Source: Bacteroidota bacterium
GTDB taxonomy: Bacteria; Bacteroidota; Bacteroidia; NS11-12g; UBA955
Reading direction: 5' to 3'
Length of the DNA stretch: 64,000 bases
Assembly (NCBI GenBank): GCA_027488835.1
Contig: JAIYAW010000008.1
Coordinates: 124,001-188,000 of the forward strand
Shown: positions 18,094 through 25,003 of the stretch, in pieces
Layout: every line of letters starts with the position of its first letter
Position numbering within the stretch: position 1 is the first letter of the stretch
Notes under the pieces: generated by a model
Seen by the model: the letters and a program-made list of their open reading frames with translations, nothing else
What the model was told of the DNA's origin: nothing
Databases searched by the model: none
Position numbers and translations under genes: made by a program

Positions 18094-19590
18094 TTATCTA
18101 TCCAATTGCTCCAAATACCCATCCGCGTTTTCTAAATGCATATTTTGCTTTGATGCATCCATTTTGTCGAAACTTTTGATAAGCATTCCCAACCTTGGAT
18201 TTTTAAGAAAAAATTCTCGGTGAACATGCATGAAACGCCAAAATAAACCGTCCCAAATTTGCTGCCAATCGCCTTTGGAATAATTGCTCATCTTCATCAA
18301 ATAATTGCTGCCGCTGATATAAGGTTTGGTCGACATTATACCGCCATCTGCAAACTGACTCATTCCGTAAACATTAGGAACCATGACCCAATCGTATGAG
18401 TCAATGAACATTTCCATGAACCATCTGTAAACCTCATCCGGATCGAATTCGCAAAGCAACATGAAGTTGCCCAACACCATCAATCGCTCAATGTGATGAC
18501 AATAGCCGGTTTCTAAAATCTTTTTGATGGTGATATCAATAGGTTCAATGCCTGTTGTTCCGTCCCAAAATGATCGGGGAATTTTGCGGTTAAACTGCCA
18601 ATAATTCTTGGTGCGTTCTTCGCTGCCCCGCAACTCGTAAACGGCCCGAATGAATTCTCTCCAACCCATGATTTGACGAATAAATCCCTCCAAAGAATTC
18701 ATAGGAATTTCATGATCCTTAGCGTATTCAAGGGTTTCACTCAGAATATATTCCGGTGTCAACAAACCCACATTCATCATGGGTGTGAGTATACTGTGAT
18801 GCAGAATAATTTCGTTGGTAACTATGGCATCTTCATATGCCCCAAATTCTAGAAAACGGGTTTCTAAAAACTGGGTTAGCCAATCTTTGCTTTCTTCGAA
18901 CGTAGTAGGATAAATAATTGATGGATTTGAAATTCCATAGTTGTTTGGGAAGTGCTTTTCAATGTATTCAACTGCTTCTGAATAAAATGGATTTTTAGAC
19001 AAACTCTCCGTTTTGGGAGGCGTTTTCCCCTTTGGGTATTTCAAACGGTTTTCATCATCGAAAGTCCATTTTCCCCCAATAGGATCTTTTTCGTTTTCAA
19101 TGAGTACGTTTCTCAATACCCGTTGATGCTTGTAAAAATCGGTTTGAAACATCCGTTTGCGGTTTTTGAAAAATTCAAAATTAGATTCGGAAGTATTCAG
19201 AAACATAGGGGTTTCTATCTTGTTACAAACCATGTTTACAGAAGCGCTGGCTTTGGCAATGCGTTGTTCCAACCAATTGTCGGTGGTATCTATGTAAATC
19301 ACTTCCAAATGTCCCTCAGAAAATAAAAAAGGAATCAATTTGCGCACGTCTGACAATTCATTGTTCGATTCAATATACACCACATTGATTTTGAGGGACA
19401 GCAAATGTGCTTCATAAAATTTCATGCTTGCCCGGTGGAAAATGAGTTTGCTTTTATGGAAGTTATATTGCTGAAAATATAGCCATTCTTCAACCAAGTA
19501 AACGGTATGGCAGGTTTCTAGCAAAGGGCTGTTTTCAAACAGCTGATGCGGAAAAACGATGCCTATTTTGTTGGGTTCTAATTTTTCCAT
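18094..19590 (-). CDS. Photolyase-related protein of the FeS-BCP/PhrB family lacking the Fe-S cysteines
   Basis: A 498-residue member of the photolyase-related family (PF04244, FeS-BCP). The N-terminal alpha/beta domain starts KIGIVFPHQLF and the C-terminal FAD-binding half has HHIERLMVLGNFMLL, DPDEVYRWFMEMF and VPNVYGMSQFADGG, all diagnostic. Characterised members (PhrB, CryB) repair 6-4 photoproducts and bind a [4Fe-4S] cluster through four cysteines. Here the three C-terminal ligands, expected after MSNY, are missing: the region reads SKGDWQQIWDGLFWRF, and the upstream ligand position holds no cysteine. It is encoded with no gap behind the other photolyase gene and must be co-transcribed. 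It may be a cluster-free photolyase or a light sensor. Confidence 0.85.
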   Translation of the reverse strand: MEKLEPNKIGIVFPHQLFENSPLLETCHTVYLVEEWLYFQQYNFHKSKLIFHRASMKFYEAHLLSLKINVVYIESNNELSDVRKLIPFLFSEGHLEVIYIDTTDNWLEQRIAKASASVNMVCNKIETPMFLNTSESNFEFFKNRKRMFQTDFYKHQRVLRNVLIENEKDPIGGKWTFDDENRLKYPKGKTPPKTESLSKNPFYSEAVEYIEKHFPNNYGISNPSIIYPTTFEESKDWLTQFLETRFLEFGAYEDAIVTNEIILHHSILTPMMNVGLLTPEYILSETLEYAKDHEIPMNSLEGFIRQIMGWREFIRAVYELRGSEERTKNYWQFNRKIPRSFWDGTTGIEPIDITIKKILETGYCHHIERLMVLGNFMLLCEFDPDEVYRWFMEMFIDSYDWVMVPNVYGMSQFADGGIMSTKPYISGSNYLMKMSNYSKGDWQQIWDGLFWRFMHVHREFFLKNPRLGMLIKSFDKMDASKQNMHLENADGYLEQLDR

Positions 19591-21123
19591 TTATTCGGGA
19601 GTTTCGTTATTGAACAAATCGTTGATTGCTTTTTGTTTTGCGTTGTTTTTAGCCATTTGTTTTGATGTATTTACATGCTTTTGCAAAATGCGTTGGCCTT
19701 CGGTTTTAACTGCTGCTGTTTTTTTGAATTGATACACCTGATCGCTGGCGGCTTTTCGGCTTTCTTCAATATCAACAATTGGATAGGGGTAGTCTTTTCC
19801 AATTTCGACCTTATATAATTCTTGCTCCATGGCACTCATTTTCCAAGGTTCGTGAATGATGTCGGCAGGCACCAACCGCAATTCAGGAATCCAAGTTTTG
19901 ATGAATTCACCGTTTTCATCGTGTTCCATCGAGTTTTTGATGGGATTGTAAATTCTGATGGTATTGATGCCAGTTACCCCAGATTGCATTTGCAACTGAG
20001 GATAGTGAATGCCTGGTTCATAGTCTAAAAACTGCTTTGCCAAGTAATGCAATTCCCGCCAATCTTGCCATAGGTTAAACACAAAAAATGAAACCACCAT
20101 GGCACGCATTCTAAAGTTCAAATAACCGGTTTCTTTTACGCACCGCATGCACGCATCTACAATGGGAACACCTGTTGTTCCAGTTTGCCAAGCCAAAATA
20201 TACGCTTCGTTTTTGGGTTTTACCAAGTTGTCGTAAGCGCGGTTAACGTTTTCAAATTCCATACGGCATTCATCTTCAAACTTTTGCATGAAGTGGCAAT
20301 GCCAATGTAGCCGAGAATTGAAATTGTTCAACGCTCTTTTGTTGATTGATGTTTTATAGTGCTGCAAGGTAAATTGGTAAACCATGCGCATGCTAATATT
20401 GCCATAACTCAAATACGGGGAAATACGGCTGCATCCCCTACGACTCAAGGCAGGTTTGGATATGTGTTTTGAATAATTTACGTAGCGGTCTTTTAAAAAG
20501 CTGCTTAAGTATTTCCAAGCCATTGTTTCACCACCCATCTGAAACGATTTATGTGGTTGGGTAATGTCGTTATTCAGCGGTTCTCCCCTTAGGTTTTCAT
20601 GCCAAACTTTGTCAATGTCTAAAAAGCGCCAATTGCTTTCACCAACCATTTTTGGCGGTTCTTGCATTTTAATTTTCCAACGCTTTTCCCAGTCCCTCCG
20701 AGATTTTAACTTGCGTATTACCCCATTGTTTTGGTATTCCTTCCAAACTATGTTGTGTTGGGTGCAAAAGTCTTTAACTGCAAGGTCTCTTTTGTAGGTA
20801 ATTAGATTGCCAATTTCTTGGTGGGAAAACAACGTGGCAATGGTATATTTTTTCTGTATTTCTTCGAAAACGAAAAGGGCTTCTTGATGGAAAATAGCAA
20901 TTTGAACATCGTGCTCTTTTAGTTTGTCTTGCATATCCTGCAAGGATTGATAAACAAAGCGCCAATGCCGCACGTCGCTATCTTCATAGTTCATCACTGA
21001 CGGCTCAAAGCAGTAAATTAGCAGAATGGGTAGTTGTTGGTTTTGGGCATTGAAAAGGGGTTCGTGGTCGGTAAACCTCAAATCTCTTTTAAACCAAACA
21101 ACGGCAATTTCCTGCTTCAACAT
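19591..21123 (-). CDS. Deoxyribodipyrimidine photolyase/cryptochrome family protein
   Basis: A 510-residue flavoprotein. The N-terminal antenna domain opens VVWFKRDLRFTDHEPL. The FAD-binding domain carries SRISPYLSYGNIS, RLHWHCHFMQKFED, WQTGTTGVPIVDACMRC and TGINTIRIYNP, followed by KTWIPEL. These motifs place it in the photolyase/cryptochrome superfamily, which uses blue light to reverse pyrimidine dimers or to signal. The QLQMQSG segment differs from the usual WQW motif of class I CPD photolyases and marks a separate subgroup, so the exact lesion is uncertain. The C-terminal tail (~60 residues) is lysine-rich and Q/N-rich. It is first in a two-gene operon with the FeS-BCP-like gene, which starts at the very next base. 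Confidence 0.88.
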   Translation of the reverse strand: MLKQEIAVVWFKRDLRFTDHEPLFNAQNQQLPILLIYCFEPSVMNYEDSDVRHWRFVYQSLQDMQDKLKEHDVQIAIFHQEALFVFEEIQKKYTIATLFSHQEIGNLITYKRDLAVKDFCTQHNIVWKEYQNNGVIRKLKSRRDWEKRWKIKMQEPPKMVGESNWRFLDIDKVWHENLRGEPLNNDITQPHKSFQMGGETMAWKYLSSFLKDRYVNYSKHISKPALSRRGCSRISPYLSYGNISMRMVYQFTLQHYKTSINKRALNNFNSRLHWHCHFMQKFEDECRMEFENVNRAYDNLVKPKNEAYILAWQTGTTGVPIVDACMRCVKETGYLNFRMRAMVVSFFVFNLWQDWRELHYLAKQFLDYEPGIHYPQLQMQSGVTGINTIRIYNPIKNSMEHDENGEFIKTWIPELRLVPADIIHEPWKMSAMEQELYKVEIGKDYPYPIVDIEESRKAASDQVYQFKKTAAVKTEGQRILQKHVNTSKQMAKNNAKQKAINDLFNNETPE

Positions 21124-21516: not shown

Positions 21517-23592
21517 TTAATTCAAACTTGTTTTCTTATAAAACATATTCATTGCCAAAACATGAGGGAAGCTGATGCAGGCAATGAAAATAAAGAATAA
21601 GCTCAATAGATTGTTGTTGATTTGGCTTACCAGATTTAATTGAATACACACTGTCAAAACGGCAAACAGGAACAAAGCACCAAACGTAAATGGGAATGCC
21701 TTTTTAGTGAGATTGAGATTGTTTGCGTTTAATCCCTGTTTTAAATGCAACCATCCAGTGAAACTGTGTTGCCCAATGAAATATATGCCAAACGAGATTA
21801 GTAAAGGCAATTGATTTGCCAATAAAATTATTGCAACAGCCAAATATATGGGCTTCTTATTTTCTATGATGGCAAACCCAATTGCCAAAACAATACTTAC
21901 CCAATATGTATAGAATACTGTTGAATCTTTGATAGCAGAAAGGTCCACATTCATGTTCAATAATATGTCCTTCGTTTCATTGAAATGCCCAAACAATATA
22001 ATTCCAAAAACCAATGTCCCCCAAAGCCAACTTTTAAAAGCTTTGTTTTTGCCAACGCGCCATTCTAGAATGTCGGTAGAACCAAAATGCCAAATTGAGA
22101 AGATGAGGAAGAAGTAAAACGACAATTTCGGGGCTATTACCCAGAGTAAAAAATACAAAAAGGCGACCCCCAAATATTTGAAAATAAACTTGAACGTGGG
22201 TTTGTGATTGATTTGCTTGCTTTCGAGTAAATGGTCTAACGCTCCATGCGGAATTCCTACTGTGAAAAGTCCAACTACACCTAAAATTAGACTTGTTTTG
22301 TTGCCGATTTCAGGGTCTAAAACAAATAACAGATTCAGAAATAAGGTAGTTAGCAATAGCAGGAAAGAGGGAAAAAAAGGATTAAATCGATGCCATGTAT
22401 CTTTCAATAACGCTTTCATAAACGTTAAAAAAGGCAAAGTTTTGAATATTTGGATGTCCTCCCAAATGCTCGTTTTTTCATCCAAGAATTTTAGAATCAG
22501 TGCCAAAGGATTTTTTTGAAAAAGCGTTTCGAAGATGCTTGTTGCGGTTGTGTGGTTTTTTTCGATAATTTTCAGCAACAATCGATCGTATAATTGGAAT
22601 CGGGGACTTCTCTCAATAATTTCGATTTTGGTATTGTTTAAAATCGATTGAGATATTGTTTCCGAATGGTTGATCATATTTTTAAATGCATAACCGGTGC
22701 TCGGTTTGATGGCACCCGCCCTTGCTCCAATTTTGATTATTTTTTGCGAAGGAGTTTCGGTGGTTATTTCCGCTGAACTCATAGGGATACATCCAATTTC
22801 TGTATCAATTAACTGGAATGCTCCATAATGTTGTTCAACGTAATTTTTGATAATGGGTTCTGCTTCGTGAACAGTAATAATGTTTTCGCCAAATCGAGTG
22901 AGCTCTACCAAGGCCAAATTTTGGCCAAATGGCAATACGTACATGAATTGTGTGTTTTCATTTTGAGGGACATTGAAATCCATCAAATCGATGGTTGTTG
23001 ATTTGAAATGTGCGTCATTCAATTGAACAACAAAGCCAACAAACGATTGAAAAAGATGTGCTTGATGGATATTGGGTTTATGAAATCTTGGTGGACGGCT
23101 ATCAAAAACCATTTTGGCCAGCCAAGTTTCATCTGCAGACAATACCTTGGTATGTTCGTTGTTTTCTTTTAATTTATTTACCGCTGCATAGGTTCTGGTA
23201 ATATTGAATTTTTGGATAATTCTGTTAAGTTCCTGATATAAATCAATGCCTTTTATATGGAAATATTCAATGCCGTTGCTTTTGTCTGTGAGACTCTGGT
23301 TTACGGCAAATGAATTCCAGCGGTGAGAAACAATACGTTCAATGTTTTTGACAAAAGGTTCTTGGGCATTGCCCCAAAAACAATATGTTTTGTCGTTTTG
23401 ATCTTTTCGATCTGGATCGGCAATTAAGATATTTTTGTTTTCTAATAATGCGTTTCGTTCAAGACTTAACAGCAACAATATGGTTGAAGCGCCAGCGCCA
23501 ATGAATACATAATCATAAACGTGTATTTTATGGGTTGGCTGCATCATCTGATTAAACTTGTTTGTGTTTCTTGAGTGAACTTTTTTAGGCAT
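21517..23592 (-). CDS. Fused lycopene beta-cyclase (CrtY) and beta-carotene 15,15'-dioxygenase (Brp/Blh)
   Basis: ATG 23592 gives 691 residues. Residues ~25-400 are a complete CrtY-type cyclase: FAD/NAD fold (YDYVFIGAGASTILLLL), DKTYCFW, VFDSRPP, LMDFNVPQ, YVLPFG, IPMSSAE and KPSTGYAF. From ~404 a polytopic membrane domain of the Brp/Blh family follows, with GIPHGALDH (H449), IWHFGSTD (H502), FIGQHSFTG (H609) and FPH (H677). The first half would turn lycopene into beta-carotene; the second would cleave it to two retinals, the chromophore for the rhodopsin encoded next door. Fusion would channel the product within the membrane. A longer start at 23613 lies in a terminator hairpin and is unlikely; ATGs at 23547 and 23544 would also give a complete cyclase. 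The Blh ligand expected four residues after H609 is not His (nearest is H616). Confidence 0.9.
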   Translation of the reverse strand: MPKKVHSRNTNKFNQMMQPTHKIHVYDYVFIGAGASTILLLLSLERNALLENKNILIADPDRKDQNDKTYCFWGNAQEPFVKNIERIVSHRWNSFAVNQSLTDKSNGIEYFHIKGIDLYQELNRIIQKFNITRTYAAVNKLKENNEHTKVLSADETWLAKMVFDSRPPRFHKPNIHQAHLFQSFVGFVVQLNDAHFKSTTIDLMDFNVPQNENTQFMYVLPFGQNLALVELTRFGENIITVHEAEPIIKNYVEQHYGAFQLIDTEIGCIPMSSAEITTETPSQKIIKIGARAGAIKPSTGYAFKNMINHSETISQSILNNTKIEIIERSPRFQLYDRLLLKIIEKNHTTATSIFETLFQKNPLALILKFLDEKTSIWEDIQIFKTLPFLTFMKALLKDTWHRFNPFFPSFLLLLTTLFLNLLFVLDPEIGNKTSLILGVVGLFTVGIPHGALDHLLESKQINHKPTFKFIFKYLGVAFLYFLLWVIAPKLSFYFFLIFSIWHFGSTDILEWRVGKNKAFKSWLWGTLVFGIILFGHFNETKDILLNMNVDLSAIKDSTVFYTYWVSIVLAIGFAIIENKKPIYLAVAIILLANQLPLLISFGIYFIGQHSFTGWLHLKQGLNANNLNLTKKAFPFTFGALFLFAVLTVCIQLNLVSQINNNLLSLFFIFIACISFPHVLAMNMFYKKTSLN

Positions 23593-23597
23593 AAAAA

Positions 23598-23642
23598 AAG
23601 GCGGATTTTTCAAACGTATAGACTATTTGAAAAATCCGCCTT
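23598..23642 (-). terminator. Terminator/attenuator between rhodopsin and crtY-blh
   Basis: Two perfectly complementary 17-bp arms (23598-23614 and 23626-23642) enclose an 11-base loop. Read on the minus strand the stem is followed by a run of seven T, so it terminates rhodopsin transcripts 18 bases after the opsin stop. The ATG of the fusion gene begins at 23592, directly after the T-run. Any read-through mRNA would carry this hairpin right before the start codon. Confidence 0.9.
23611..23618 (-). promoter_or_regulatory. TAnnTTTG -7 box inside the terminator loop, candidate crtY-blh promoter
   Basis: On the minus strand TACGTTTG matches TAnnTTTG and spans the loop and the first bases of the second arm. 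Transcription would start near 23604, giving a leader of about a dozen bases to ATG 23592. No good -33 TTG at 19 bp is seen. Confidence 0.4.
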
Positions 23643-23660: not shown

Positions 23661-24377
23661 TTAGTCTTCGTTTCTGCTTAAAGCATAGATTACTAAACCA
23701 AAACCGATTTTGTTGATTGCATCGGCAATGTTATAAACGATGTCCATGTAGTGAGAAGCCAATTTTGGATCTGCAACTAATTTGATTCCGAAAAGACCAC
23801 CTGGAGTTCCCAAGATGTATCCTAATGGATAAATAGCCCAACCAACCAAAACGAACCAAGCCAAAATACGCGTTGCTTTTGCAACTTGTGGACCTGCAGT
23901 TTGTGACAACTTAGCTACTTCACCAAACCATACTAAGTATGCAATGTAGAAGTAAGCAGCACCAGAAATTACACCCCAAAGAACGCTATTGGCAGCATCG
24001 ATTGTTTCACCGAAATAACCGGTAACCAACATCACTACAGAAGCGAAGATTAACTTCCAAAGTAGGCTAATTTTAGCACCTGCTTTTTTGGTAATCAAAT
24101 AGAACTCTACGCACATCAAAGGCACAGTCAAAATCCAGTCAACATATCTAAAGAATGTTGGTGAATCGCCTGTTGCCAAGTTGTAACCGCGCATGTAGTA
24201 GTAATGCACAGCTGCGATGAAAGTAATTAGTCCTGAAACTAATACTGAAGTTCTCCATTTAGCTGAAGTGTTGTTCAACTCAAAGAAGAAGAAAACTGAC
24301 GCGGCCATCATAGCCATTGTGCCGATAAAAAACGTGAACGCCACGTAATTATCACTTGCAATTTTTAAATGTTCCAT
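23661..24377 (-). CDS. Proteorhodopsin, light-driven outward proton pump
   Basis: ATG 24377 gives 238 residues and seven membrane helices; a longer frame to 24467 adds a basic, non-hydrophobic extension and is rejected. Key residues match proteorhodopsin: H58 (its H75) in AAVHYYYMRG, D80 as proton acceptor, T84, and E91 as donor in RYVDWILTVPLMCVEF, and K223 for the retinal Schiff base in DAINKIGFG. The D-T-E triad indicates outward proton pumping rather than sodium (NDQ) or chloride (NTQ) transport. The tuning position (105 in proteorhodopsin) is M88, which fits green absorption. The gene next downstream makes retinal from lycopene, so chromophore supply is local. It has a private terminator. 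Confidence 0.97.
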   Translation of the reverse strand: MEHLKIASDNYVAFTFFIGTMAMMAASVFFFFELNNTSAKWRTSVLVSGLITFIAAVHYYYMRGYNLATGDSPTFFRYVDWILTVPLMCVEFYLITKKAGAKISLLWKLIFASVVMLVTGYFGETIDAANSVLWGVISGAAYFYIAYLVWFGEVAKLSQTAGPQVAKATRILAWFVLVGWAIYPLGYILGTPGGLFGIKLVADPKLASHYMDIVYNIADAINKIGFGLVIYALSRNED

Positions 24378-25003
24378 AATATATAAATTTAGTTTGGTTT
24401 TTCCTACTCTTTTGGCTTTTCGGTTAAGGCCCCGTTTTTTTAATTGGTAGCTGGACTCCAATTTCAAAGAAACAATGATAGAATAATTAAGTTTTAAAAA
24501 CTAATGTAAAAATGTTTATTTCAATAATTTATTCAATTTTTGGCTGTTTTAAACGCGAAAAACTCAAAAAATATTTAGCATTTTTTTTAAACAAAACTTT
24601 TTAAACTCAATGTTTACATAATAATTAAATAACAAAAACATTAAACAAAATAATTTGTTGAACTTTGATTGAATAAAAGATGAACAATTTAAAATTGAAT
24701 TTATAATCGCCAAAAAAAATCCCTCGGTTCTTGAGGGATGGATTGAAGGGGGGGTTGGTTAATGGTGCGCCAATTTATAAGCCACCCATCTTCTATTTGC
24801 CCTTGATTAAGTCAAGTACATTTTCTCTGTAGCGGTTTTGATTGCTGTACGATATCTGTCCCTCATGAGCCAATGTGCCAACAACAATTGAAAAAATTTA
24901 ATATTGCTACTGATAGTTACGCTTCAGGTTAGGTAATTATTCCGTTTATGGTGCAATTTGCATTTTAGCATCAAAAACAATACAAGTTATGGTATGTGAG
25001 CAC
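24378..25003. other. Long regulatory/intergenic region upstream of the rhodopsin gene
   Basis: These 626 bases separate the rhodopsin from the DUF1801-CDGSH gene, both on the minus strand. The half nearest rhodopsin is extremely AT-rich with A- and T-tracts (24481-24720) and probably holds its promoter, although I find no clear TAnnTTTG box. A minus-strand hairpin with a T-tract lies at 24719-24739. At 24793-24897 an open minus-strand frame of 34 codons without ATG reads like a decayed protein end, but it matches no family I know. No RNA gene is recognisable. Confidence 0.5.
24719..24739 (-). terminator. Terminator-like hairpin upstream of rhodopsin
   Basis: ATCCCTC (24719-24725) and GAGGGAT (24733-24739) flank a 7-base loop; on the minus strand the stem is followed by eight T. 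It is 265 bases beyond the stop of the nearest minus-strand gene (25004), so it either ends a long 3' tail or an unrecognised small transcript. Confidence 0.7.

Follow-up and report, generated by a model that had tools for sequence, protein, structure and literature searches.

A fused CrtY-Blh protein of Bacteroidota as a putative lycopene-to-retinal enzyme associated with proteorhodopsin

Retinal supply limits rhodopsin phototrophy, a common route of light capture in water, and lycopene cyclase and the dioxygenase Blh are the last two enzymes in the synthesis of retinal, the aldehyde of vitamin A. In the window, by which we mean the whole 64,000-nt stretch of Bacteroidota DNA analyzed here, sequences resembling both enzymes lie in one reading frame next to an opsin gene, which raises the question of whether the joined protein is a working bifunctional enzyme and whether it is dedicated to that opsin. 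The locus contains the following features, in the order of transcription.

23661 to 24377, minus strand: opsin gene of the proteorhodopsin type, 238 aa, with the Asp, Thr, Glu and retinal-Lys positions conserved
23593 to 23642, minus strand: intrinsic terminator (hairpin and T-tract, -24.4 kcal/mol, z -6.9) between the opsin and the fusion gene
21517 to 23544, minus strand: crtY-blh fusion gene, 675 aa from its likely ATG start, which is placed by comparison with relatives L002 and L003; the open reading frame reaches TTG 23613
22414 to 23514, minus strand: CrtY-type lycopene cyclase domain (Pfam Lycopene_cycl), residues 34-400 of the 698-aa open reading frame
22318 to 22431, minus strand: predicted continuous helix from the end of CrtY into the first Blh membrane helix (AlphaFold, model residues 372-409)
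21541 to 22272, minus strand: Brp/Blh beta-carotene 15,15'-dioxygenase domain (Pfam BCD), residues 448-691

Read from its TTG codon, the open reading frame (21517-23613, minus strand) encodes 698 aa with no internal stop, and it matches nearly the full length of both Lycopene_cycl (PF05834; E = 7.9e-45, 154 bits against a cut-off of 23.4, model positions 1-377 of 380) and BCD (PF15461; E = 1.2e-34, 120.6 bits against a cut-off of 28, model positions 2-266 of 267). The single uninterrupted frame described in an earlier note on this DNA was thus borne out. The same note had placed the start at ATG 23592, leaving a gap of 69 nt to the opsin. Because this ATG directly abuts the T-tract of the terminator hairpin, and because its N-terminal extension is closed in L002, where the counterpart of ATG 23592 soon runs into a stop and the sole open start is the counterpart of ATG 23544, ATG 23544 is the likely start, and the gap to the end of the opsin gene at 23661 was corrected to ~116 nt.

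The fusion is present as a single copy in the window genome (a 2.49 Mb assembly, 99% complete), with no other CrtY or Blh. Relatives assembled separately keep the same open frame at about 81-82%, 51% and 35-47% identity, so it is neither a read nor an assembly artefact. An error joining two genes was accordingly rejected as vanishingly improbable, given that many independent assemblies spanning 35-82% identity share the frame, and the frameshift between the domains that had been proposed as a refutation is absent. The nearest named relatives are L002 (about 81%) and L003, whose gene is truncated by a contig end; both are metagenome-assembled genomes titled Flavobacteriales bacterium, the isolate names of which point to a freshwater habitat.

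A search for the same architecture across the phylum, as the earlier note had suggested, recovered it in at least 12 Bacteroidota families (f1, f2, f4, f12, f13, f15, f21, f22, f35, f43, f52 and f89). Counting full-length sequences only, 40 of the 108 genomes from the order carry a fusion, as do 33 of 395 in a class-wide sample; more come from family f89, which lies outside the class. In quick trees of each half, all fused Blh domains form one clade (98% SH-aLRT), and a single clade of fused CrtY sequences was not rejected (AU p = 0.77, with a likelihood above that of the free tree). The closest unfused group in the CrtY tree consists of adjacent crtY-blh pairs, which often lie nearly end to end, so that a small frame change could have created the fusion. 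The sole unfused member of the fused Blh clade, G017, is a natural fission in which crtY and blh are split with a 4-nt overlap (L100, 410-2481); an opsin fragment adjoins the split genes. Both topologies fit a fusion that arose once, from neighboring crtY and blh genes, and was later split once, and the interleaving of families within them suggests transfer between lineages. Several independent fusions were also considered, as two f52 sequences stand apart in the free CrtY tree, and found unsupported, the constrained tree being likelier and the Blh clade single. No viral carriage of the fusion was found, and a search for plasmid carriage gave no full-length match. The fusion is no rarity; it is a widespread architecture, apparently of single origin.

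Whether both halves of so widespread a protein are likely to be active was addressed through conservation, selection and predicted structure. In an alignment of 51 unfused and 73 fused CrtY sequences, nearly all columns invariant in the unfused relatives are retained by the fused clade, and the window protein keeps every one of them, the nucleotide-binding glycines included, except W54, which is Tyr. Residue 54 (numbered from ATG 23544) marks a fusion-specific change, being Trp in 98% of unfused and 3% of fused sequences. In Blh, four His are invariant across all fused and unfused sequences, and all four are present in the window protein. The two halves show similarly strong purifying selection, with dN/dS against L002 of about 0.10 for the CrtY half and 0.095 for the Blh half. 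An AlphaFold model of the fusion, built with 22 sequences, has a mean pLDDT of 87.5 and a pTM of 0.74, the latter making the relative placement of the domains only moderately sure. In its fold the CrtY half resembles flavoproteins, among them geranylgeranyl reductases, the C-terminal half is all-helical, and one unbroken helix (residues 372-409) bridges the two, such that the junction is predicted to be a rigid helix without a flexible linker. A sequence-profile search returned no solved structure.

One could suppose that a single half is active and carries a degenerate partner as a passenger or scaffold. Favoring this, the window protein falls short of the strict NCBIfam lycopene cyclase cut-offs (TIGR01790, 92 against 209.5 bits; TIGR01789, 67.6 against 215.2 bits), a shortfall that may reflect the scope of those models. 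The NCBIfam blh_monoox model (TIGR03753) is passed at 138.2 bits against a cut-off of 95.25. Retention of the invariant residues in both halves, the similar selection on each and the presence of no other Blh in the window genome all argue against a passenger, which we regard as quite improbable. Both halves look functional, the completeness of both domains claimed in the earlier note was upheld by the near-complete Pfam matches and conserved residues, and there is no sign of the degenerate domain that it had named as a refuting outcome. The identification of the fusion as a putative bifunctional enzyme is, at the level of sequence, well supported.

The fusion is also linked to an opsin. The window opsin, the only one in its genome, matches PF01036, and its helix C Asp, Thr and Glu and helix G retinal Lys line up with those of green proteorhodopsin. 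Among solved structures, the chains 9jov and 9jou are nearest to it. An opsin occurs in 55 of the 57 fusion genomes and in none of 13 same-order relatives without these genes (Fisher p = 2e-12, uncorrected for kinship). Two fusion genomes have no counted opsin: G009, in which part of an opsin gene adjoins the fusion at the edge of a contig, and G004. In G004 (98% complete) the fusion is present and neither an opsin nor a second cyclase was found. The opsin is adjacent, upstream and on the same strand in 29 fusion genomes; in 6 more it adjoins the fusion in a different arrangement, and in 20 it lies elsewhere. The association drawn in the earlier note is supported, and of the neighborhood that it described the upstream adjacency holds here, whereas adjacency is not universal and the strong terminator between the genes means that they are not simply co-expressed. 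The two neighbors also differ in divergence: between the window and L002, L104, L105, L110 and L117 the opsin protein is 91-98% identical, as compared to 41-83% for the adjacent fusion, and against L002 the opsin dS is 0.16 while that of the fusion, 0.1 kb away, is 0.85 and 1.13. The low opsin dS would fit higher expression of the opsin than of the fusion.

Two photolyase/cryptochrome-type genes (PF04244; PF00875/PF03441) at 18094-21123 on the minus strand adjoin the opsin-fusion pair in the window, and L110 has similar-looking open reading frames (MNEAVLIFPHQLF..., IIWFKRDLRL...) close to its own pair. Upstream of the window opsin, ~620 nt of AT-rich DNA (24378-25003) hold no annotated gene and include a terminator-like hairpin at 24719-24739.

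To what extent the terminator is a shared feature was assessed at 37 opsin-crtY junctions, three of which are contig-cut or unfused. A consensus scan found a hairpin and T-tract in 35 of them; the two that it missed (L007 and L073) have a hairpin and T-tract with an indel when inspected by eye. Two of the scan matches are poor, of which L083 shows a clear hairpin and T-tract by eye and L077 a very stable hairpin but no clear T-tract. The whole gap folds at z < -2 relative to shuffled sequence in 34 of the 37 junctions. Stem sequences vary between genera, and a compensating base-pair substitution separates the window from L003 (AAGGCGG/CCGCCTT versus AAAGCGG/CCGCTTT); a mixed alignment contains two pairs changed on both sides. 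At some g12 junctions the start codon lies no more than about 15 nt from the T-tract, leaving little space for a separate promoter, which makes read-through past the terminator the simplest route by which the fusion would be transcribed.

The fusion is not the sole cyclase of the window genome, a possibility that was considered and rejected when a CrtYcd-type cyclase, unrelated to CrtY, was found on contig C8 (G000; L187, 1167-2413). Contig C2 of the same genome carries crtZ-crtI-crtB and a CruF-type gene, where the names crtZ and crtI rest on sequence appearance and neighbors, the crtZ reading frame being without a Pfam match. A second cyclase is present in 50 of the 57 fusion genomes, as CrtYcd in 45 and, among the 12 others, as a stand-alone CrtY in five (G203, G213, G220, G344 and G484). 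In 12 CrtYcd neighborhoods, the gene lies beside xanthophyll genes in five (crtZ/cruF/crtI/crtB in L191, L192, L193 and L196; crtZ in L197) and beside an ECF sigma-factor-like gene in seven (L187 of the window genome, L188, L189, L190, L194, L195 and L198). This pattern fits a split of roles in which CrtYcd would supply other carotenoids and the fusion retinal, and the split is not universal. No second cyclase was found in seven fusion genomes (G004, G032, G087, G448, G648, G663 and G755), including three f89 genomes that are 99-100% complete; in such genomes other carotenoids may also depend on the fused cyclase, or beta-carotene may be released. All seven have crtZ, which lends no support to the idea that the need for a second cyclase is confined to genomes with crtZ.

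We consider it probable that the fusion is a bifunctional enzyme that makes retinal from lycopene specifically for the opsin, with preferential transfer of beta-carotene and expression held below that of the opsin by the terminator. The N-terminal flavoprotein half (CrtY) would cyclize both ends of lycopene to give beta-carotene, and the C-terminal membrane half (Blh) would cleave this into two molecules of retinal, to be used by the organism's one proteorhodopsin. With both halves on the same membrane and one rigid helix between them, beta-carotene would pass preferentially from one to the other, while CrtYcd, the second and unrelated cyclase, would serve the other carotenoids (CrtZ, CruF) and the terminator would keep the fusion transcript below the opsin transcript. 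The catalytic activity of both halves, the preferential transfer and the expression ratio are what we infer from these features, the preferential transfer in particular because the junction is rigid, a second cyclase is present and the fusion has long been conserved; substrate channelling of beta-carotene, which the earlier note had proposed, is plausible.

Being soluble in the membrane, beta-carotene could reach one enzyme from the other by diffusion even if the two were separate. The fusion might then be bifunctional without channelling, a fixed accident of an overlapping crtY-blh pair that guarantees only 1:1 expression, with beta-carotene mixing freely in the membrane. The sister position of unfused, often nearly contiguous crtY-blh pairs to the fused CrtY clade, the return of G017 to a split pair, and the f89 genomes with crtZ and no second cyclase found all speak for such an accident. 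Set against them are the retention of the fusion across 12 families with one fission detected, the rigid helical junction without a flexible linker in the AlphaFold model, and the second cyclase retained in 50 of 57 genomes, and we judge this alternative possible and on balance doubtful. Dedicated conversion with preferential transfer remains the reading we favor.

No description of a bacterial CrtY-Blh fusion was found in the open-access literature, in line with the statement of the earlier note that the fusion is not known to have been characterized; protein databases may already contain this combination of domains. The nearest known protein, CrtI-CrtB-CrtYcd-Blh, has four domains and comes from the apusomonad Thecamonas trahens; direct production of retinal has been proposed for it (PMC10016063). 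Like the window fusion, it combines a lycopene cyclase with Blh at the C terminus of a single chain; unlike it, it is eukaryotic, has an unrelated CrtYcd-type cyclase and carries two extra domains, whereas the window protein consists of a CrtY-type cyclase and Blh only. In Bacteroidota with crtY and blh side by side as unfused genes (for example L197/G262 and g14 genomes), the same two families occur in the same order, and in G262 the pair also lies beside an opsin with a terminator between, yet such pairs encode two polypeptides and fall outside the fused clade. Stand-alone Bacteroidota CrtY shares the family and catalytic residues of fused CrtY and forms a clade apart from the fused and blh-adjacent cyclases. 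The Brp/Blh beta-carotene 15,15'-dioxygenase Blh of an uncultured marine bacterium (Kim et al. 2009, cited in PMC13043013) belongs to the same enzyme family as the window Blh half, but is stand-alone. The fusion-type lycopene cyclases CrtYcd of Sulfolobus and Algoriphagus, as cited in PMC2889829, are carotenoid-pathway fusions related to the second cyclase of the window genome; they join two cyclase halves, whereas the window fusion joins a cyclase and a dioxygenase.

We tentatively propose, at somewhat below an even chance, a class of dedicated lycopene-to-retinal enzymes in Bacteroidota that hand over beta-carotene directly, keep the retinal branch apart from xanthophylls made through a second cyclase, and are kept at lower expression than the opsin by a conserved terminator. 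A natural one-protein converter of lycopene to retinal would be a useful engineering part, and the fusion would be a clean test bed for the channelling of membrane-bound intermediates among carotenoid enzymes. The presence of two cyclases suggests a way in which these cells divide lycopene between antenna or protective pigments and the chromophore of the opsin.
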